Assembly: GCA_018817645.1 (NCBI GenBank) | Contig: JAHITK010000006.1 | Coordinates: 1 to 48,589, forward strand | DNA from: Patescibacteria group bacterium | GTDB taxonomy: Bacteria; Patescibacteriota; Minisyncoccia; Minisyncoccales; PEYH01 | Direction: 5' to 3' | Length of the DNA stretch: 48,589 nt | In this document: positions 10,007-43,279 of the stretch, one piece after another | How positions within the stretch are numbered: the first letter of the stretch is position 1 | Layout: each line of letters opens with the position of its first letter | The notes under the pieces: generated by a model | The model's input: the letters and a program-made list of their open reading frames with translations, nothing else | Told to the model about the DNA's origin: nothing | Databases searched by the model: none | Program-made: the position numbers and the translations under genes

Positions 10007-10118
10007 CCTGTGGATAACTTTCCCCAAAAAATTACGAGGCCGGGCCTCGTAGTGAGAATCCTTATATCTGGCGTGGGTTCCGACGTTTTACGAAAATTAC
10101 GAGGCCCGGCCTCGTAGT
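10007..10118 (+). repeat. Paired-palindrome REP/BIME-like element, copy 1
   Basis: cctgtggataactttccccaaaaaattACGAGGCCGGGCCTCGTagtgagaatcc...ACGAGGCCCGGCCTCGTag; palindromes 10034-10050 and 10099-10115. Confidence 0.95.
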
Positions 10119-10129
10119 GACCTTGTCAG

Positions 10130-12460: not shown

Positions 12461-12571
12461 CCTGTGGAAAACTCCCCCTCAAAAATTACGAGGCCGGGCC
12501 TCGTAGTGAGAATCCATTGATTTGACGCGGTTTCCGCCAAATGCAAAAATTACGAGGCCCGGCCTCGTAAT
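12461..12571 (+). repeat. Paired-palindrome REP/BIME-like element, copy 2
   Basis: Palindromes 12488-12504 and 12552-12568; leader cctgtggaaaactcccc. Confidence 0.95.
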
Positions 12572-12666
12572 TACCCCTCATAATTTCCTTAAAATTTCAA
12601 TTTATAAAAAGGTCCGCCTCGCGACTCGCGAACGAAGCGGACACCCAGACACAACGCCCAAAAGAA

Positions 12667-20220: not shown

Positions 20221-20333
20221 ACCTGTGGAAAACTTTCCCCAAAAAATTACGAGGCCGGGCCTCGTAGTGAGAATCCTTATATCTGGCGTGGGTTCCGACG
20301 TTTTACGAAAATTACGAGGCCCGGCCTCGTAAT
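20221..20333 (+). repeat. Paired-palindrome REP/BIME-like element, copy 3 (RAYT 3' flank)
   Basis: Palindromes 20249-20265 and 20314-20330; inter-palindrome spacer identical to copy 1. Confidence 0.95.
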
Positions 20334-20361
20334 TCTGAAAATCGACTAAATTTTGGACTCA

Positions 20362-20391
20362 AAACTGCTCTAAACTGCTCTAAACTGCTCT
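20362..20391. repeat. 3 x 10-bp tandem repeat
   Basis: aaactgctct x3, between REP copy 3 and the RAYT stop. Confidence 0.9.
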
Positions 20392-20421
20392 AAAAAATAT
20401 TAAAAAATAAATCATTCCAAA

Positions 20422-21129
20422 TCATTCTAAAAAATCTGTTTTATCTATTCCTTTAGAATAAATGCTTGATTTGGATAATATCCAAGAGTTTATTTCGTTC
20501 TTAATTTCTTGTTTTCCGTTAAATAACTTCGCAAAAAAATCTTTTTTAATCAATGAAGGAAAATTATCTTTCCCTAAATAATCCTGATAACTGGACCAGC
20601 GATATTCGCTCCCTAAAAATTGAATGGCCTTCTGGGGATTAAGAACTTTCCATTCTTTCCACTGCGGCTCAACGAGTTCTATCGGATTTGTGTTTATATA
20701 AACAAAATTATTTTTAAGCTGCGTTTCTGTCTGGATAAGTTTAGCTCTAAACCGTCCCTCAAAAAGAGATCCTGTTCTTTGATATTTTTTATTAAAAAAA
20801 TACGCATATCCGCCGAGTTTCCTTGTATATTTCGTAATGCCATTTTCTGTGATTTGCCGAATAAGAAGATGAAAATGGTTGCCCATTAAAGCAAATGCGT
20901 GAATTTCGACCAAGGGATTCTTGGGCTGATAAGACATCACCAGCTCTTTTTGTCGCTTCCAAAAAGCGCGGGATTGCCACGGCGAAGGCGCTGTATCGTT
21001 AAAAACTAACAAACTATTAATAAAACGAAGGCGATCTTCATCGTCTAAGAATATTTTACGCTTATCATTTCCGCGCTCTATAATATGGTAGAATTCACCA
21101 TTGATTAATTCGGTTTTTCTTTTTGGCAC
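20422..21129 (-). mobile_element. REP-associated tyrosine transposase (RAYT; Y1/IS200-like HUH)
   Basis: GEFYHIIERGNDKRKIFLDDEDRLRFI, HAFALMGNHFHLLIR (HUH), YAYFFNKKYQRTGSLFEGRFRAKLI, YRWSSYQDYLG; REP copies on both sides. Confidence 0.92.
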
Positions 21130-21173
21130 ATATTTATAATAACTTATAACAAAAACTTTTTAAGGGTTAACAC

Positions 21174-21309
21174 CCTGTGGAAAACTTTTATCTATATCCG
21201 TCTCGAGCGGCCCCCAAAAAATTACGAGGCCGGGCCTCGTAGTGAGAATCCTTATATCTGACATGGGTTTTCGGCGATAGCAGAAATTACGAGGCCGGGC
21301 CTCGTAATT
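21174..21309 (+). repeat. Paired-palindrome REP/BIME-like element, copy 4 (RAYT 5' flank)
   Basis: Palindromes 21224-21240 and 21289-21305; leader ctgtggaaaactttt with extra sequence. Confidence 0.95.
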
Positions 21310-21330
21310 TCTGTCTCTTAATTCTGTTTA

Positions 21331-21359
21331 TTGCAATCTGAATAAAATAGGGTTATAAA
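21331..21359 (+). promoter_or_regulatory. Putative promoter for RNA C
   Basis: TTGCAA-N17-TATAAA. Confidence 0.5.
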
Positions 21360-21365
21360 AAATAA

Positions 21366-21610
21366 CGGGGCGTTTTGGCTCCAAAACTTGCAAGGAGGTG
21401 ATCGCCGCAATGAAGCGAGCGCTATAGTTCTGTAGTGCCTCGTTACGGTGTACATCGTTATCCTCTCGGGACGCAAAAGAGGATAGCGTCCCTTTTGTCC
21501 AAGGGACCCCTTTGGTCGGACAACACAGGACAACCGCACAAACATAGCACTCTCGGGTAAAACCCAGACATCAACAAGGCGGACCTTTCCAAGGCCCGCC
21601 TTTCCCGTTT
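21366..21610 (+). ncRNA. Candidate structured RNA 'C'
   Basis: Upstream promoter; nested alternative hairpins; terminator GGCGGaCCTTtccAAGGcCCGCC + TTTcccgTTT (21578-21610); contains AAGGAGGTGATC. Confidence 0.55.
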
Positions 21611-21635
21611 CAAGATAATATAACCGAGATTGCCA

Positions 21636-21664
21636 TTGACACGGATTAAATATAGTGTTATCAT
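21636..21664 (+). promoter_or_regulatory. Sigma70-type promoter for the 77-aa membrane protein
   Basis: TTGACA-N17-TATCAT, about 30 bp before the ATG and its SD. Confidence 0.7.
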
Positions 21665-21695
21665 ATTATTACTTTGCTGAAGTTAAGGAGGGCAT

Positions 21696-21929
21696 ATGAA
21701 TACTCTACGCGAAGTCCTAAAAAAGGACTGGCCTATGATCGGATGGAAGAGGGCAGCCAAGATTTCTGTCCTCTGTGTCGTGATGGCGTGCGGGATAATC
21801 CTGGGCGGATTCCCGGGAACCAAACTCTTGGAAGTTCTGGGTTTGGGCTGCGGTTTAGGCGCTGGATTTACTTTGATTGCTTTTGCTACTGCCATCTGGC
21901 GCATCCACCGCCAAACAGAATCGCCATAA
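21696..21929 (+). CDS. Small membrane protein, 77 aa
   Basis: SD TTAAGGAGGGCAT-ATG; hydrophobic segments ISVLCVVMACGIILGG and GCGLGAGFTLIAFATAI. Confidence 0.75.
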   Translation: MNTLREVLKKDWPMIGWKRAAKISVLCVVMACGIILGGFPGTKLLEVLGLGCGLGAGFTLIAFATAIWRIHRQTESP

Positions 21930-22008
21930 AGACGAGGCAAAGGAAAAGGAGAAACACAACTTCTCCTTTTTCCTTTTCTGGATTAAAAACCAAACGGAGT
22001 ATCAAAAA

Positions 22009-22141
22009 CCCTCTGGATAACTTTTATTTATACCCGCCCCGGTCGGGCCAAAAAATTACGAGGCCGGGCCTCGTAGTGAGAATCCGTTGATTTGACGCGG
22101 TTTCCGCCAAATGCAAAAATTACGAGGCCCGGCCTCGTAAT
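22009..22141 (+). repeat. Paired-palindrome REP/BIME-like element, copy 5
   Basis: Palindromes 22058-22074 and 22122-22138; leader ctctggataacttttatttatacccgccccggtcggg; spacer nearly identical to copy 2. Confidence 0.95.
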
Positions 22142-22185
22142 GACCTCATAATAATAAAAGCCAAAGGGTTAGGAGATAGATTGCT

Positions 22186-26136: not shown

Positions 26137-26250
26137 CCTCTGTGGATAACTTTTCCCAAAAAATTACGAGGCCGGGCCTCGTTGCGACAATCCCTAATAC
26201 TGGCGTGGGTTTCGACGTTTAGCATAAATTACGAGGCCGGGCCTCGTACT
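26137..26250 (+). repeat. Paired-palindrome REP/BIME-like element, copy 6
   Basis: Palindromes 26166-26182 and 26231-26247; leader tgtggataacttttccc. Confidence 0.95.
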
Positions 26251-26262
26251 GTTGTTTTGCGT

Positions 26263-29604: not shown

Positions 29605-30987
29605 TTACTTTTTCCTTTCACCGAGAACGACTATAAGAGTTATCTCCTTCCCCTCTCTTAAAATTTTGAGATTTACCGAATCATTGGGATTATAATCCAA
29701 GATAATCTTGGCCAAGGGATTCTCGGAGGTAATTTTAACGCCATTGAATTCCAAAATAATATCATTCTTCTTAATCCCGGCTTTGGCCGCCGGACTGTCG
29801 GCCACAACGGCTGTCTCCGTGTCTTTTCCCAAAGAATCCTTGCCAATCCAGGCCCCATAATCAACAGACAAATTATTGGCTTCGCTGATTTCTTCGGTGA
29901 TTAGCGTGTAAGACACACCCAACCACGGATAAACAATGGTTCCCGTCTTTTTTACCTGGTCAATGTCTCTCTTCGCCATATTAATAGGCAAGCTAAAGCC
30001 GATATTCTCTCCGCTGGAAGAGCGGGCGGCATTAATCCCGATTACTTCCCCGGCCAGATTTAAAAGCGGACCGCCGGAATTGCCCGGATTAATGGCGGCG
30101 TCTGTTTGAATAATGCCTTCCAAATTCTCGCTAAAGCCCGCTTCGCCCGTCGCCGTAATGTTCCGGCCTAATCCGGAAATAACGCCCACTGACACGGTAT
30201 TCTGGAATTCTCCCAAAGCGTAACCGATGGCTATCACTGTTTGGCCGATCTGCAAACTGGAAGAATCGCCCAACTTCACGGTGGGAAATGTTTTTCTTTC
30301 CCCTTCAGGGGCATCTGACTGGTCAACTTTGAGAACAGCTAAATCATAGAACGGATCCTTGGCCAAGATTTTAGCCGGGTATTTCGAGCCGTCGCCGAAA
30401 AAAACCGTGTATTCCGCGCCCTCTTCCAAAGTGACATGTTTGTTTGTTAAAATTATGCCGTCTGAAGAAATAATGAATCCGGTTCCCCCGCCCACTTGCT
30501 GTTTTTCTGTTCCGTTTTCGCGGTATTGGGGAATAAGAAAATCGCTTCCAAAGGGCCAATTCAAACCGCCGAAAGGGTCAATATAGTATTTCTCCAAAAT
30601 CGGGACATCTTTGCTGATAACAATGCTTACCACGGCCGGCGAATAATCCTTAACCGCCTGAATAATCCTCTGCTCCTGGGTTGTCTGGGGAATGTAGTTA
30701 TTTTGGATGGTCGTGTCTTTTCTAATAATAGGGACTCCCTGTTGCTCCAGAATATCAATAACCTGATTCTGCCAATAATAGTTGGTGAGAATCGCGCCGG
30801 CTGCGCCGGCTGTGATGGATACCAAAATTATCAACACTGCCAAAAGTCCCGGCCGATGTTTTATTCTGCCCCTATTCTTAGCAATGACCTTAAGTTTGCC
30901 TAAGTCTATCTTTGGAAAGCGGAAACTATTTTTTATTGAACTGCTGTTTTGCCAAAAATTACTACTTTCCTCCATTTTGTTAGTCAA
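29605..30987 (-). CDS. S1C trypsin-like serine protease with PDZ domain (HtrA/DegP-like)
   Basis: TNKHV (His), YDLAVLKV (Asp), NPGNSGGPLLN (Ser), C-terminal PDZ. Confidence 0.9.
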   Translation of the reverse strand: MTNKMEESSNFWQNSSSIKNSFRFPKIDLGKLKVIAKNRGRIKHRPGLLAVLIILVSITAGAAGAILTNYYWQNQVIDILEQQGVPIIRKDTTIQNNYIPQTTQEQRIIQAVKDYSPAVVSIVISKDVPILEKYYIDPFGGLNWPFGSDFLIPQYRENGTEKQQVGGGTGFIISSDGIILTNKHVTLEEGAEYTVFFGDGSKYPAKILAKDPFYDLAVLKVDQSDAPEGERKTFPTVKLGDSSSLQIGQTVIAIGYALGEFQNTVSVGVISGLGRNITATGEAGFSENLEGIIQTDAAINPGNSGGPLLNLAGEVIGINAARSSSGENIGFSLPINMAKRDIDQVKKTGTIVYPWLGVSYTLITEEISEANNLSVDYGAWIGKDSLGKDTETAVVADSPAAKAGIKKNDIILEFNGVKITSENPLAKIILDYNPNDSVNLKILREGKEITLIVVLGERKK

Positions 30988-31409: not shown

Positions 31410-31517
31410 CATAATTTTTAGAGTATCTACTATTTTGATACTTTCTAAAATTGTTGTCAAATAAAAGCCGCGGGCCTGGCTCGCAAGAAAAATTTACGAT
31501 GAAAAATGCCAAGGATT

Positions 31518-32519
31518 TTACTGCATCAGCAAATTTTTTATTTCGTTCCAGATTTCGGGTTGGTTTTGTTTTTCTTTCATCCAATACCACCACTCCGACC
31601 CCCAAAGATAAAAAGTGTCTGTTCCGGTATCCTTGGCATATTGGATTATTTTTCTTATTTTCTGAAGATCCATAGTTTTTTCCTGTTCTTCTAAAGGAGA
31701 ATCAGATAACAAGGTCTGACCCCACGGTTCCGCCTGGAGCTCAACGCAAATAACCTTTTTATTAAATAACTTACCTATTAACCAGGCCTTTCTATGATAG
31801 AAAACGGGGGGAAACGGCGGCCTAAAGTAAAATTTAAAATCACTGGACCAAACCACCCGGTATAGAGTATGCCCGACCATATCGCCATATTTCGCCGCTT
31901 TGAACCAGAAAGGAAACTCTCCGCTCTCGCTCACCACCACTGGTCTTTTTTCAGGGTCAAGGGATTTAACCAAATCTATTTCTTTTTTTATGTCCTTTCC
32001 GGAAATAAGGGGGCAATTGTCTCCAAAAGGAAAAAAGGGTTCGTTTTCCACTTGCCACATTTTAATCGCGGAATAATCTCTATACCTCAAAACCACCTGT
32101 TCCAGATAATTTAAAAGTTTCTTGTTGAAATCTTCTTGACTTAAATTTTTTGCCCAATCCGGGATATGGCATTCCGGCCAGCGCGGGACTTTTCTGCCGA
32201 TGACCAAAAGGACTTCCGCACCTCTTTTTTCCGCCTGCTCAATCTGCCAATCCAAATCAGCAAAATCAAACACTCCCGGCTCTTTTTCTATTGAATCCCA
32301 GTAGGCGACCAGTTTTAAATTTTTAACCTGCAAATCGTCTAAAATCGCCAGGTAGTTGGCTCTCCAATCCAGCCCTAAGAGCTCGGCTTGTTTTTGGGAA
32401 AACACCGCTCCCCAGGTGATGTTCTCGGCGGGAGTGGCTTTACCAATAAATAAAAAAACAAGGAGGCCGATGATGAAAATCAAGAAAAGGAAAAGTATAA
32501 TTTTAAAAACTTTAGGCAT
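31518..32519 (-). CDS. Secreted TIM-barrel glycoside hydrolase-like protein
   Basis: N-terminal TM/signal; YWDSIEKEPGVFDFADLDWQIEQAEKRGAEVLLVIG, IKMWQVENEPF, KVICVELQAEPWG. Confidence 0.7.
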   Translation of the reverse strand: MPKVFKIILFLFLIFIIGLLVFLFIGKATPAENITWGAVFSQKQAELLGLDWRANYLAILDDLQVKNLKLVAYWDSIEKEPGVFDFADLDWQIEQAEKRGAEVLLVIGRKVPRWPECHIPDWAKNLSQEDFNKKLLNYLEQVVLRYRDYSAIKMWQVENEPFFPFGDNCPLISGKDIKKEIDLVKSLDPEKRPVVVSESGEFPFWFKAAKYGDMVGHTLYRVVWSSDFKFYFRPPFPPVFYHRKAWLIGKLFNKKVICVELQAEPWGQTLLSDSPLEEQEKTMDLQKIRKIIQYAKDTGTDTFYLWGSEWWYWMKEKQNQPEIWNEIKNLLMQ

Positions 32520-37920: not shown

Positions 37921-38596
37921 AATGAGGCGTTATTTCTTCCTTCAGTTTTTCCAGATATTCGTCCGGGAAGGACTTGGCTTTTGCAAGTTTGGGGTTCAGG
38001 AGTTTGCCTTGCGACTGGAAATTTTGCAAAAAATATTTGGGCGCAGGCGAAATCCATTTTACGATTTCCAAGATATCTTTCTTTTCCACCAACCCCGGGA
38101 CAAGAGTGGTCCTGAATTCAAAATCAATCACTCCTTTTTTTAACAATTTTATGCTTTTGTCTATCTGTCCAACATCAATATCCGCGCCAACCACTGTCTT
38201 ATATCTCTTTTTGGGCGCCTTAACATCCATTGCCGCATAATCAAGCAAGTTCAATTCAATCAGCTGCCGCAGCATTTCCGGACGGCTCCCGTTGGTGTCC
38301 AGTTTTATCAAAAACCCCATCTCCTGAATCTTTTCTATAAAATCCGGGAGGTCGTCATAGATGGTCGGCTCGCCTCCGCAAATTACCACTCCGTCTAAGA
38401 ATCCTTTCCTTTCTTCAAGGAATTCCCAAATCTTTTCTTCGGGAATCAATGGATGTTTTTTAATCTCCTCTGCCAAAACAAGCTCGGGATTATAGCAGAA
38501 CGGACATTTAAAATTACAACCGCTGACAAATATGGTAGCGGCAACCTTCCCCGGATAATCAATAAGGGTAGATTTTTGAATGCCTCCTATCCTCAT
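37898..38596 (-). CDS. nrdG: Anaerobic ribonucleoside-triphosphate reductase activating protein (radical SAM)
   Basis: GCNFKCPFCYNPELV, VVICGGEPT, KLDTNGSRPE; overlaps nrdD by 4 bp. Confidence 0.9.
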   Translation of the reverse strand: MRIGGIQKSTLIDYPGKVAATIFVSGCNFKCPFCYNPELVLAEEIKKHPLIPEEKIWEFLEERKGFLDGVVICGGEPTIYDDLPDFIEKIQEMGFLIKLDTNGSRPEMLRQLIELNLLDYAAMDVKAPKKRYKTVVGADIDVGQIDKSIKLLKKGVIDFEFRTTLVPGLVEKKDILEIVKWISPAPKYFLQNFQSQGKLLNPKLAKAKSFPDEYLEKLKEEITPHFDVCQIR

Positions 38597-41500
38597 ATCT
38601 TGAGATTAAACACTTTCCTGTCCTTGAATTCCTGCTGTTTCCCCGCATTCCATTGTTTCACGGGGCGGATGTAGCCGACAACCCTTGAATAAACTTCGCA
38701 GGGTTGCTCCACCACGCATTTCGGACACTTAAAATGTTCGCCGGCGATATATCCATGAACCGGGCAGATGGAAAAAGTCGGAGTCAAGGTAATATAGGGA
38801 AGCTTAAATTTAGTAAAAATATTTTTTACCAGCGCTTTAACCGCTTCCGCCCCGGACAGCCGCTCCCCGGCAAAAATATGCAAGACCGTGCCGCCGGTAT
38901 AACGGCACTGCAATTCGTCTTGAAGTTTCAGCGCTTCAAAAACATCGTCAGTATAATTGACTGGCAATTGGCTGGAATTGGTATAATAGGGAACTTCCGG
39001 AGTGCCGGCGGCAACGATGTCCGGATATTTTTCTTTGTCTTTTTGAGCCAGGCGGTATCCAGTGCTCTCACCGGGCGTCGCTTCCAAATTATACATATGG
39101 TCTGTTTCTTTCTGATATCGCAATAGCCGTTCTCTCATAAAATCCATTATCTCCAGTGAGAATTTCCTTCCATTATTTGACGCCACTCCCTCTCCCAGAA
39201 AGTTAACAAGCGCCTCGTTCATTCCAATTAAACCAATAGTGGAAAAATGATTGGCATAATATGCTCCCCTGGCTTGTTTAACCCCACTCAAGTAATACTT
39301 TGAATAAGGATAAAGCCCTTTTTCAATATAGTTTTCTATGGTTTTTCTTTTAATCTCCAAACTTTCTTTGGCTAAATCCATGGCTTTGCCAAGTTGTTCA
39401 AGAAAATCTTTTTTGGTTTTGGAAAGATAACCGATTTTCGGAAGATTAATAGTGACTACTCCGATGCTGCCCGTGAGCGCGCCGGCGCCAAACAACCCCC
39501 CGCCCCCGCGGTTATGAAGTTCTTTCATGTTCAACCGAAGCCGGCAACAATTAAAAGAAATTTGCCCCAAAGAATGCAGAAAAAGATGGTTTTTTTGAAG
39601 TTCTATATCGTAAAACTCTATTGGTTTTTTATATTTTTTAATTTTAATTTCCTGCGCTCTAGTCAAATAAATATTGCTATTCTTGATTTTTAAACTCTCT
39701 TGAGTATGAGCTCTGTATTTTTCTAATGTATTAGACCCGGTCGTTCTAGACTTAGTCAGTCCTGGCACCTTGGTGGTAGAGACTGCCATCCACCCCGGTA
39801 GTCTTTCGGCCAAAATCGGATTATTAATGCATCCGTTCCCTTGTTTGATTTTTGACTTAGCATGCTGCAAATAAATTATCTGGCTCTTTTTCCTTAATTT
39901 ATAGGTAACGGGCTTCCCGATTAAAGAATAAAGCAACACAAGGTCGCGAGATAATTCTAAATCATTTATATGGATTTCTTGCCTTCTATCATAGCCGTCA
40001 CCCTTAAAGTGAAATTCTAAAAAACTTTTGATAACATCGGGGGGAGAATTAAATAAAATCTGGGGCAATCTTCCATATTTTTTAAATCCTGCATTATAAA
40101 ATTTTCTGGCTAATTTGGTGTTATAAACATAAAGATAGTAAGTATTATATTTTGGGTCTTGCTTCTCTTTACAATCCAAATTAAAAACTTTTTTAATTAG
40201 TCCTCTTATTAAATTCAGATTTTCCAAATCCCCTGTCTTAAAAGTAAATTGTAGGCCTCTCGGCTCTCCAAAATGAACATAATTTTTCCTATTTTTAAAC
40301 AAATAATTTCCATCTGCCACAAAATATCCTAATATTTTAGCCAAATCTTCATTGAAACTGAATTCCTCAATGCTCTGATATTTTTTAGATAAAACTCCCT
40401 CGTCTGCTCTCTTAATAACCAAGAGATAATCTCCTTTTTTAATATCTTTGGCGAACTTCATCACAATTCCTTGTTGGCAATAAACCGCCACCGGGTGGTT
40501 TAATGAGAATATTGCTTTTCTGCCGTCTACGCTACTAATTTCTACTACTCGGGTATCGCTAATCTTTAAGAATCTCTTTATCGGAGCCCATTCTAACTTT
40601 AAGGTTTTTGGATTCAAGGACAGTCCTTCTATTCTCCCTTCTTTTTTACATTCTGACCACCCTTCTTTGTCAAACTCTCCGTCTTTATAATTCTCCGCTA
40701 CTTCTTTAACGGAAAGTCTTTTAATTTTTCTTGAATTCCTAACTAAAATTTCCTGACTTCCCTCTAAACACATACTTCTGACATCTTCTGGACTCATATC
40801 GGAATTAATATAGTTGGCGAAATAATTGATTCCGTATTTTGCCGAGGCCTCAAAGATTAAATCAAAAACCGTACCGTCCCAGGGAAAATCTTTAGTGATA
40901 TTTATGGTTGGAATCGGAAAATGGAAAGGCCGGCCGTATTTGTCCCCCTCAATCATCGTTTCATACAGCGCTTTATCAAAGATTCTCATCTCTTCCTCAA
41001 ATTCGCCGTATGTTTCCTCTTGGGGCTTCCCTCCCCAGATAACGGGTTGTCTGGAAAAGACCGGCGACGGTTTTAAATCCAATGTTATATTTGAAAACGG
41101 ATTCTGAAATCCCACTCTCGTCGGCACCGCCATATTAAACAAGAATTCCTGCAAGGATTGCTTGACCTGCTCATAATTTAAATTGTCATAACGGATAAAA
41201 GGCGCCAAGAGGGTGTCAAAATTAGAAAAAGCCACCGCTCCAGCGATTTCTCCTTGAACAGTGTATAGAAAATTTACCACCTGTCCCAAGACAGCCCGGA
41301 AATGTTTGGGCGGTTTTGATTCCACTTTTCCCGGCGCGCCGCCGAATCCGCGCAGTAAAAGATCATAGAGGTCCCATCCGGCGCAATAAAGCCCTAAGGT
41401 ATCCAGGTTGTGGATATGAAAATCATTATGCTCTACTGCCTGTCTGATTTCTTTCGGGTAAATTTTATTGAGCCAATACTTTTTGACAATATATGAAACG

Positions 41501-41916
41501 CCGTAATGATTAAGGCCCTGCAAAGAAAAGGTCATATTGGCATTTTCCCGAACTTCCCAATCCAATTTTCCGAGATATTGGTCAACCCTGTCAACCGCTT
41601 CTTCGCTGGCCGCCACCGCTTCCCTTGTTATTCTCCTTTGCTCCCGGTAAAGGATATAGGCCCGGGCTGTTTCAGTAAGATTTTCCGCGATTAAAACCTC
41701 CTCCACGATATCCTGAACCTGCTCAACATTCGGAATTTCGCCTTCCTTAAAGCGCCGGCCCAAAATATCCGACACTTTTTTGGAAAGTTTTTTAGATAAA
41801 ACGCCATCCGCCTGGCCGGTCGCAGTGATGGCTTTATAAATGGCTTTGGCTATCTTTTCCTGTTCAAAATCAACAATACTCCCGTCCCTTTTTTTAACTT
41901 TAACAATCTTTGTCAT
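38593..41916 (-). CDS. nrdD: Anaerobic ribonucleoside-triphosphate reductase, interrupted by an intein
   Basis: ATP-cone N-terminus, NCCRLRLNMKELHNRGGGGLFGAG, CPVHGYIAGEHFKCPKC, glycyl-radical C-terminus RVVGYIRPVKQWNAGKQQEF. Confidence 0.93.
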   Translation of the reverse strand: MTKIVKVKKRDGSIVDFEQEKIAKAIYKAITATGQADGVLSKKLSKKVSDILGRRFKEGEIPNVEQVQDIVEEVLIAENLTETARAYILYREQRRITREAVAASEEAVDRVDQYLGKLDWEVRENANMTFSLQGLNHYGVSYIVKKYWLNKIYPKEIRQAVEHNDFHIHNLDTLGLYCAGWDLYDLLLRGFGGAPGKVESKPPKHFRAVLGQVVNFLYTVQGEIAGAVAFSNFDTLLAPFIRYDNLNYEQVKQSLQEFLFNMAVPTRVGFQNPFSNITLDLKPSPVFSRQPVIWGGKPQEETYGEFEEEMRIFDKALYETMIEGDKYGRPFHFPIPTINITKDFPWDGTVFDLIFEASAKYGINYFANYINSDMSPEDVRSMCLEGSQEILVRNSRKIKRLSVKEVAENYKDGEFDKEGWSECKKEGRIEGLSLNPKTLKLEWAPIKRFLKISDTRVVEISSVDGRKAIFSLNHPVAVYCQQGIVMKFAKDIKKGDYLLVIKRADEGVLSKKYQSIEEFSFNEDLAKILGYFVADGNYLFKNRKNYVHFGEPRGLQFTFKTGDLENLNLIRGLIKKVFNLDCKEKQDPKYNTYYLYVYNTKLARKFYNAGFKKYGRLPQILFNSPPDVIKSFLEFHFKGDGYDRRQEIHINDLELSRDLVLLYSLIGKPVTYKLRKKSQIIYLQHAKSKIKQGNGCINNPILAERLPGWMAVSTTKVPGLTKSRTTGSNTLEKYRAHTQESLKIKNSNIYLTRAQEIKIKKYKKPIEFYDIELQKNHLFLHSLGQISFNCCRLRLNMKELHNRGGGGLFGAGALTGSIGVVTINLPKIGYLSKTKKDFLEQLGKAMDLAKESLEIKRKTIENYIEKGLYPYSKYYLSGVKQARGAYYANHFSTIGLIGMNEALVNFLGEGVASNNGRKFSLEIMDFMRERLLRYQKETDHMYNLEATPGESTGYRLAQKDKEKYPDIVAAGTPEVPYYTNSSQLPVNYTDDVFEALKLQDELQCRYTGGTVLHIFAGERLSGAEAVKALVKNIFTKFKLPYITLTPTFSICPVHGYIAGEHFKCPKCVVEQPCEVYSRVVGYIRPVKQWNAGKQQEFKDRKVFNLKI
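39550..40770 (-). mobile_element. NrdD intein (407 aa) with LAGLIDADG endonuclease motifs
   Basis: Starts CLEGSQEILVRNS after ...PEDVRSM, ends LHSLGQISFN before CCRLRL; LAKILGYFVADG and FLEFHFKGDG; Hint block SLNHPVAVYC. Confidence 0.92.
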
Positions 41917-42011: not shown

Positions 42012-42178
42012 TCTTGTGGAAAACTTTTACTTAACCCGCCCAAGGCGGGCTTGCCCGCCTTGGGCGAACCACTAAAAAATTACCAGGAAAAATTACGAGG
42101 CCGGGCCTCGTAGTGAGAATCCTCAATACTGGTGTGGCTTCCGACGTTTAACAGAAATTACGAGGCCGGGCCTCGTAA
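42012..42178 (+). repeat. Paired-palindrome REP/BIME-like element, copy 7, with an extra nested palindrome
   Basis: Palindromes 42095-42111 and 42160-42176; insertion CCCGCCCAAGGCGGGCttGCCCGCCTTGGGCG between leader and first palindrome. Confidence 0.92.
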
Positions 42179-43279
42179 TGGCAGATACATTTGGAAAAGT
42201 TTGTTAAAAACTTTTTCCCAGGCAAAATTTTTGGAAAATTCCAAAGATGCACTCCTTATTCTTTCCCTAATCTCCGCCTCGTCTAACAAGATATTCACTT
42301 TCTGAAAAATATCCGGCGCCTCTTTTGGCCTGGTCAAAAAGCCGTTTTCTCCGTCTTTTACCAGCGATTTTGAACCGCCGGCATCAGCCACCACTGGAAC
42401 AAGCCCGGAGGCCATGGCTTCAATGGTGACATTCCCGAATGTCTCTGTGGTTGACGGAAAAACGAATATATCTGAAGAAGCGTATGCCTGCGAAAGTTCA
42501 ATTCCTTCAATATGGCCAAGGAAGATGACACCGGGCATAAGTTGCTCTAATTCTTTGCGCACCGGCCCTTCGCCCGCAACGACCATTACAAAATCATTCC
42601 TTTTTGCCTTTAATAATTTGTATGCTTCCGCTAAAGTACGCAGGTCTTTCTCCCAAGTAAGGCGACAAACGCACAATAAAATTAATTTATTTTCATTTTG
42701 AATAATTTTTTGTCTCCAATCTGGCGAACGGAAAGAAATGTCAAAATTGACAAAATCCACTCCCCAAGGAATGGTTAGGACATTTGGTATCCGATGGTCA
42801 ATAAGTTCCTGCGCCATAACTTGCGAAGGGGTGGTGGTAAAACTCATCTGTTTATACAACCTCCTCAACAAAAACCAAGCGAATGGTCTAAGAAAACCGA
42901 GATTATAGTAGACGAAATATTTACAAAAATCGGTATTATGAGTGGCGACAATCGGAATACGGCGTCTCTTGGCGTATTTTAAAGCGGACCAGGCAATAGT
43001 ATCCGGACTGTGAAGGTGGATGATGTCCGGCTTAAATTCGTCCAGTTGCTTTTGAAACTTCCTGGTGCCGGGCAAAGAAAGACGATAAGCCCTATAAAGC
43101 GGGAATACTATTGAAGGAATCTTGATAACCGGGACCGGAGACAGAGAAACATCCTCTGCCCAGCCAGTAATAATAATGGATTGGACGCCTTTTTTAAGGC
43201 CTTCATTTATAAGAGATAAAAGCACGCGGGTCACGCCGTCTTCTTTTTTGAGAGTGCCGATAAAATAAGCGATTTTCAT
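42158..43279 (-). CDS. Glycosyltransferase family 4 protein
   Basis: MKIAYFIGTLKKEDGVTRVL, IHLHSPDTIAWSALKYAK, FPSTTETFGNVTIEAMASGLVPVVADAGG; C-terminal PLRGPAS* is encoded by REP copy 7. Confidence 0.9.
   Translation of the reverse strand: MKIAYFIGTLKKEDGVTRVLLSLINEGLKKGVQSIIITGWAEDVSLSPVPVIKIPSIVFPLYRAYRLSLPGTRKFQKQLDEFKPDIIHLHSPDTIAWSALKYAKRRRIPIVATHNTDFCKYFVYYNLGFLRPFAWFLLRRLYKQMSFTTTPSQVMAQELIDHRIPNVLTIPWGVDFVNFDISFRSPDWRQKIIQNENKLILLCVCRLTWEKDLRTLAEAYKLLKAKRNDFVMVVAGEGPVRKELEQLMPGVIFLGHIEGIELSQAYASSDIFVFPSTTETFGNVTIEAMASGLVPVVADAGGSKSLVKDGENGFLTRPKEAPDIFQKVNILLDEAEIRERIRSASLEFSKNFAWEKVFNKLFQMYLPLRGPAS

Follow-up and report, generated by a model that had tools for sequence, protein, structure and literature searches.

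A REPtron-like RAYT locus and its probable family of two-hairpin elements in a CPR (Patescibacteria) lineage

The transposase gene and the repeats around it

The window analyzed here is the whole 48,589-nucleotide contig of a Patescibacteria group bacterium. A preliminary description, made from the sequence alone, had proposed a CPR-like host, and the nearest named relatives among GTDB genomes were indeed Patescibacteria/Yanofskybacteria MAGs. The contig carries a gene for a Y1 HUH transposase of the RAYT (TnpA-REP) type (Table 1), and the two protein stretches quoted earlier, GNHFHLLIR and YFFNKKYQRTGSLFEGRF, were found exactly in its ORF. The HUH motif is NHFH (residues 84–87) and the catalytic Tyr144 lies within YINTNP; N84, H85, H87, Y144, N148 and P149 were invariant across 26 homologues of the order. 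The combination of HUH and Y-x3-NP is the signature of class 2 TnpA-REP proteins, the TnpA of IS200 having Y-x3-Q (Quentin et al., 2018, PMC6006769), and by these motifs the protein is a predicted class 2 TnpA-REP.

Matches to curated models were low: Pfam Y1_Tnp, at 22.2 bits, fell slightly short of its cut-off, and the match to NCBIfam REP_Tyr_transpos (1.4e-6) reached 28 bits where the cut-off is 80. A profile of 26 RAYT relatives matched weakly the PDB entries 2xm3 (transposase, E=0.0007) and 4er8 (TnpArep, E=0.004), which we take to be ISDra2 TnpA and E. coli TnpA-REP, respectively. Neither DnaA_C (Bac_DnaA_C) nor any other credible extra Pfam domain was detected in any of the 26 RAYTs, and a structure predicted from three sequences reached a mean pLDDT of 48, too low for the model to be of use. 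Five Y1 proteins are encoded in the genome in all, one of them of this RAYT type and the others from diverged genes, and this gene is not a multi-copy tnpA with Y-x3-Q, as would be expected of IS200/IS605.

The palindrome ACGAGGCCSGGCCTCGT has 14 exact matches in the window against 0.07 expected by chance, a count reached in 0 of 100 shuffles. They form seven pairs, all in one orientation, with starts 64 or 65 bp apart, exactly as the preliminary description had claimed. The bracketing of the Y1 gene by two copies was also confirmed, copy 3 ending 87 bp past its stop codon (about 90 in the earlier account) and copy 4 lying 46 bp before its start (about 45), counted from the left end of TGTGGAWAAC at 21176. 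The starts previously given for the remaining copies (10007, 12461, 22009, 26137 and 42012) fall 2–4 bp to the left of their TGTGGAWAAC ends. An Rfam scan of the window gave no match.

Table 1. Coordinates of the transposase gene, the seven element copies and one element-free place in the window; places in congeners are given as genome, contig and position.
Feature	Position	Strand	Parts	Congeners and remarks
RAYT / TnpA-REP-type Y1 HUH transposase gene	20422..21129	-	235 aa, GTG start	
Copy 1	10009..10119	+	box 10009-10018, hairpins 10034-10050 and 10099-10115	orthologue G001 C14:53071
Copy 2	12463..12572	+	box 12463-12472, hairpins 12488-12504 and 12552-12568	
Copy 3	20224..20334	+	TGTGGAAAAC box 20224-20233, hairpins 20249-20265 and 20314-20330	orthologues G001 C14:43219, G003 C51:21859, G002 C5:3799
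Copy 4	21176..21309	+	box 21176-21185, extra stretch, hairpins 21224-21240 and 21289-21305	counterparts in the same place G001 C14:42274, G003 C51:20911, G002 C5:4778
Copy 5	22011..22142	+	one-mismatch box CTCTGGATAAC, extra stretch, hairpins 22058-22074 and 22122-22138	
Copy 6	26141..26251	+	box 26141-26150, hairpins 26166-26182 and 26231-26247	between convergent genes
Copy 7	42015..42180	+	box 42015-42024, extra stretch, hairpins 42095-42111 and 42160-42176	
Element-free place	31465..31518	.		element present in G001, G002 and G003, not in own genome (lost or never filled)

The whole genome (665 kb, 28 contigs) contains 31 palindromes, 25 of which lie outside ORFs of at least 100 aa, such ORFs covering about 85% of the sequence. 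The full-length copies detected by a covariance model comprised eleven strong ones and a diverged one, alongside about ten half copies, and seven of the eleven strong copies sit on this contig (p=3e-6). All that the preliminary description had recorded was found again.

Two other features of the window were recorded. The region 21310-22000, between copies 4 and 5, showed no Rfam match and no clear gene, and belongs to a 5-kb stretch missing from the syntenic contigs of the congeners. An anaerobic ribonucleotide reductase gene at 38593-41916 contains a match to an intein-splicing domain (Pfam PF14890, 42.5 bits).

Anatomy, strand and terminal box of the element

The consensus of the element was derived from 56 full copies of four species and reads, on the window strand, CTGTGGATAACTTTCCCCCAAAAATTAC, hairpin 1, GTNGTGAGAATCCTTATATCTGGCGTGGCTTCCGACGTTTTACGAAAATTAC, hairpin 2 and GTAATT. 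The unit is non-coding and about 111 bp long; in RAYT strand order it consists of hairpin A, a linker of 45–50 nt, hairpin B, AATTTTTGGGGGAAAG and TTWTCCACA. The linker is conserved across species while the stems differ: both hairpins have ACGAGGCC in the genome of the window, G001 has ACCCGCCC in hairpin 1 and ACGAGGCC in hairpin 2, and the stems of G002 and G003 are mostly ACGCCACCCGGCRNCGT and imperfect. The extra hairpin-forming stretch of copies 4, 5 and 7 lies between the box and hairpin 1. A third conserved hairpin, in the linker, was considered and rejected, finding no support in the fold of the 56-sequence consensus.

Canonical REPs carry a GT[AG]G tag, which was absent from all 224 hairpin feet (56 copies, two hairpins, two strands), and a canonical REP identity has to be given up. 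Both hairpins share the 5' context AATTAC on the window strand, and the AATT of their 5' flanks is direct in 54 of the 56 copies. The stems are near-symmetric, and the two inverted REPs that characterize a REPIN or BIME were not found; hairpin 2 is inverted and imperfect in some G002 copies and in one G003 copy.

Compensatory changes were observed in the stems, 126 of 154 cells being Watson-Crick compared with a mean of 105 and a maximum of 121 after shuffling; within the seven copies of the window alone the stems are invariant and no covariation was seen. G-T wobbles numbered 67 on the RAYT strand vs 14 on the other strand, and the consensus fold reached -5.1 kcal/mol vs -0.4 kcal/mol. Taken together, the compensatory changes, the wobbles and the fold point to a conserved hairpin belonging to the RAYT/gene strand, as single-stranded DNA or as RNA.

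Orientation was equally regular. Every one of the 46 copies with a box is oriented opposite to the local coding strand, with negative GC skew, and the exceptions to this orientation are nearly all boxless copies. Between co-directional genes hairpin 2 adjoins the stop codon of the upstream gene in 39 cases and the reverse holds in one (p=7e-11, orthologous copies not collapsed); in 47 of 52 cases a stop codon borders the hairpin 2 side, and the median distance between the stop and the element is 86 bp. Copies flanked by convergent genes, for which polarity offers no prediction, also follow the skew in 7 of 7 cases, representing about five independent loci. By the sign that GC skew usually has, the RAYT strand would be the lagging-strand template, which is the strand used by IS608-type single-strand transposases (PMC6006769). 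On the gene strand AATTT(T) follows both hairpins in nearly all copies, and a terminator-like score is found mainly on that strand.

The TGTGGAWAAC end (TTWTCCACA on the opposite strand) is present in 46 of the 56 copies, 40 of them at near-constant spacing and with a sharp edge, and most of the ten copies without it begin at AAAAATTAC. TTWTCCACA fits the DnaA-box consensus TT[AT]TNCACA (as quoted in PMC6006769). A box lies within 120 bp after the stop codon, just 3' of the cognate hairpin, in 7 of 42 RAYT genes, compared with 20 of 929 ordinary genes drawn from two genomes of the genus only (p=3e-5). When both flanks were counted, a box was found at 12 of the 42 RAYT loci, and 15 of 18 boxes were on the RAYT strand. 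Diverged RAYTs are among those whose cognate hairpin it follows, and several hairpins of G004, from another genus, abut AGTTATCCACA without a gap.

Two sites bear on the origin of the box. At the place orthologous to copy 7, G003 has no element and still reads TTGTGGAAAACT, the box being kept, and G001 has a one-letter variant, which suggests that the box can precede the element. At the insertion G003 C35:3908 the matching G001 site has no box, which suggests that the element brings it. The latter site and the sharp, constant edge in 40 copies led to the rejection of the box as purely a target site, and because of both the box appears to be mostly carried by the element. The exact TTWTCCACA is absent from the rnpA-dnaA and dnaA-dnaN gaps (C1:30179-31534), which have only degenerate versions, so the box is a putative DnaA-binding site and could with equal likelihood be the RAYT's own junction. 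Four features were missed in the preliminary description: this end, the orientation rule, the resemblance of the flanks to terminators, and the concerted turnover set out below.

Boxes and repeats were also observed elsewhere in the genome. Upstream of mraZ (C27:44223-44321) two opposite TTWTCCACA boxes and GTTATCCCCAC precede an MraZ-like gene without a repeat element, and a similar box pair occurs in G001 (C15:132464-132552). Between rnpA and dnaA (C1, about 29880-30040) lies an AT-rich dispersed repeat of about 150 bp (AAATCCAAAATCCAAA...), which is matched at about 17 other places of the genome.

A fixed gene, dispersed repeats and their turnover

The element and the RAYT were searched in 100 genomes of relatives. 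The element was abundant only in four genomes of the genus, with 33, 37, 21 and 20 hits, and all four possess the RAYT. Half copies are included in these counts, as are hits on the opposite strand, the model being near-palindromic. The other order-mates, about 96, gave none or at most one or two weak hits. Abundance of the repeat in relatives lacking any RAYT, named in advance as grounds for refutation, was thus not observed: outside the genus the element was absent or a weak stray hit, RAYT-less relatives included. This RAYT was matched in 53 of the 100 relatives. A high RAYT load was seen in order-mates such as G017, with 15 matches in one 0.8-Mb genome, many of them with palindromes of their own.

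The association between RAYTs and flanking palindromes extends across the order. A word of at least 13 nt was shared between the two 400-bp flanks at 34 of 42 RAYT loci, compared with 74 of 1722 mismatched pairs, and a strict GC-rich hairpin on both flanks was found at 25 of 42 loci vs 0 of 336 mismatched. The more alike two RAYTs are, the more alike are their palindromes (Mantel r=0.36, p=0.0005; r=0.34 without congeners), and a further anticipated refutation, a RAYT phylogeny and repeat sequence without correlation, did not materialize either. A second RAYT of the same genome (C4:23944-24507), diverged at 34% identity, has its own family of 31 intergenic palindromes TTAGGGTNNNACCCTAA, nine of them on its own contig, and one flank also ends in GTTTTCCACAGG. 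The two RAYTs of this genome therefore have different palindrome families, one each, and a gene flanked by its own dispersed palindromes was found in four species.

In the three congeners (G001, G002 and G003) the RAYT orthologues, 74–79% identical, lie antiparallel between two element copies in the same syntenic place, one such gene per genome, which is the pattern of a low-copy, vertically inherited, non-IS gene. The RAYT of G004 is 64% identical and apparently occupies the same locus, as judged by matching neighboring genes. Its genome-specific palindrome GCAMCGAGGCCCGKCCTCGTTGC flanks the gene on either side, interrupts it once in frame, and recurs across the genome in at least 14 places; in relatives at most one or two hits with three mismatches were found. 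The in-frame copy (locus L116, C82, 5693-5715) precedes the HUH motif. Because the RAYT stays at the same locus across congeners, it counts as a fixed gene, and dispersal is confined to the repeats. The RAYT-type reading of the preliminary description therefore stands as regards the class 2 motifs, the profile matches to TnpA-REP and the cognate dispersed family, and fails as regards the gene and repeats as a joint spreading unit.

At nine loci the element was present in two, three or four of the species. Stem identity was 0.73 between orthologous copies, 0.72 between copies of different genome and locus, and 0.89 within a genome; nearly all shared loci of G001 carry the G001 stem type, and the RAYT flanks follow the same stem type as the dispersed copies. 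This is a species-specific, concerted turnover. Since orthologous copies are no more alike than unrelated ones, either repeated replacement at the same stations or homogenization by conversion must be considered, and gene conversion without the transposase could be the source of the pattern.

Proposed working, rival explanations and known systems

The reading that we favor, at a probability of roughly 0.7, is a REPtron-like system of a CPR lineage, made up of a fixed, single-copy class 2 RAYT and a cognate family of elements of about 111 bp. Several points count against it: clean empty sites are few and many copies occupy loci common to the species, the GT[AG]G tag is missing, gene conversion could produce the concerted pattern, gene strand coincides with replication strand almost everywhere, so that the two are confounded, and the protein fits the curated RAYT models weakly. 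In such a system the RAYT, acting as mobilizer, would recognize the hairpins on the strand that carries it and the neighboring genes, the presumed lagging-strand template, and would cut and rejoin single strands close to or exactly at the ends of the element, where the TTWTCCACA side may serve as junction. Elements would thereby be copied or replaced in trans in the gaps after gene stop codons, and repeated rounds may overwrite old copies with the version fitting the current RAYT, which would give the species-specific stems observed. T runs follow both hairpins when these are read in the direction of the genes, and the retention of copies is therefore probably favored at places where they might also end transcription. 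A more specific form of this proposal, in which the DnaA-box-like TTWTCCACA serves the CPR RAYT as a junction or docking site on one side only, on the lagging-strand template, and whole two-hairpin elements at fixed stations after gene ends are repeatedly rewritten to match the palindrome recognized by the RAYT of the day, is put forward as a tentative idea, possible and more doubtful than probable.

The resemblance to transcript ends could also be the whole explanation, the elements being tandem intrinsic terminators, or hairpins of mRNA 3' ends, that are under selection for this function and stay similar through gene conversion, with the RAYT nearby by coincidence. The T runs, the strand of the terminator-like score and the position behind stop codons would agree with this, and the gene-strand wobbles suit RNA as well as single-stranded DNA. 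It is nevertheless unlikely: locus-specific palindromes on both sides of 25–34 of the 42 RAYT genes, where mismatched controls are low or zero, and their co-variation with RAYT phylogeny are hard to reconcile with an incidental neighborhood, a terminator has no need of a conserved linker and box, and the copies between convergent genes obey the skew.

Readings that start from the box or from the Y1 fold fare worse. Replication-control sites linked to DnaA, of the titration or reactivation type, in which the boxes are functional and the hairpins help to present them, would account for the frequency and fixed spacing of the box, its recurrence beside cognate hairpins of diverged RAYTs and the uniform orientation to GC skew; with a single box per element, only degenerate boxes around dnaA, 30 of 42 RAYT loci without a box and no DnaA_C domain in the 26 RAYTs, this is quite improbable. 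Marginally less credible still is a standard insertion sequence of the IS200/IS605 type accompanied by non-autonomous derivatives (MITE/PATE), whose autonomous form would be the RAYT plus its two flanking copies. The Y1 fold family, two direct hairpins with a motif at one flank only, reminiscent of IS200/IS605 ends, and the flank motif retained at the element-free copy 7 site speak for it; against it stand Y-x3-NP instead of the Y-x3-Q of IS200 TnpA (table in PMC6006769), one RAYT of this type per genome in a fixed syntenic place, and flanks each of which comprises an entire element with both hairpins, not a single end.

If the REPtron-like reading holds, REP/RAYT systems, described mostly from larger genomes, would here run in CPR genomes of 0.5–0.8 Mb. 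In the main survey the non-IS members of the protein family were commoner in larger genomes (PMC6006769); the text of that 2018 survey names no CPR group, and our literature search, with most subscription papers outside its reach, found no report of a REP or RAYT for CPR/Patescibacteria. The species set, in which every member has its own stems and all have linker, locus and orientation in common, lets RAYT-repeat co-change and copy rewriting be studied as a natural experiment, and the DnaA-box-like end makes the suggested tie of TnpA-REP to replication concretely testable.

Among known systems, the closest are the REPtrons of TnpA-REP subclasses 2.2, 2.4, 2.5, 2.7 and 2.8 (PMC6006769; E. coli, Stenotrophomonas and Marinomonas in PMC8266576), which share the class 2 Y-x3-NP HUH protein, the low-copy gene flanked by its own palindromes, the dispersed intergenic copies and the strand-specific hairpins; perfect-palindrome REPs are known in group 3, and a REP in frame inside tnpA-REP, as in G004, is known for subclass 2.4. 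Unlike those REPtrons, the present system has no GT[AG]G foot and combines a fixed, direct two-hairpin unit and conserved linker with TTWTCCACA at one end, a uniform strand and a CPR host. TIRYT/subclass 2.1 (Bertels group 1; PMC3733652, PMC6006769) likewise comprises RAYT-like proteins of about 235–240 aa flanked by non-GTAG repeats. Its members bear HTH tails, some of them Bac_DnaA_C-like, and GGGGWSAS inverted repeats reported to be unlike DnaA boxes, whereas here such a domain is missing and yet the repeats have DnaA-box-like ends. REPINs and BIMEs of Pseudomonas and E. coli (PMC3116915, PMC2817692) are also paired palindromes, thought to be mobile as a unit with the RAYT acting in trans; REPINs pair their REPs inverted, whereas both hairpins here are direct in AATTAC context and without the GTAG tag. 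With IS200/IS605 (IS608, ISDra2) the system shares predicted Y1 HUH catalysis, hairpin ends, a probable lagging-strand template bias and a one-sided flank motif, and differs in the Y motif, the fixed locus and the complete element at each flank. Because layout, protein class and co-change fit, the system would work like a REPtron and not like a canonical GTAG REP; its tag, direct two-hairpin unit, box and host do not match any described REPtron subclass among those compared.
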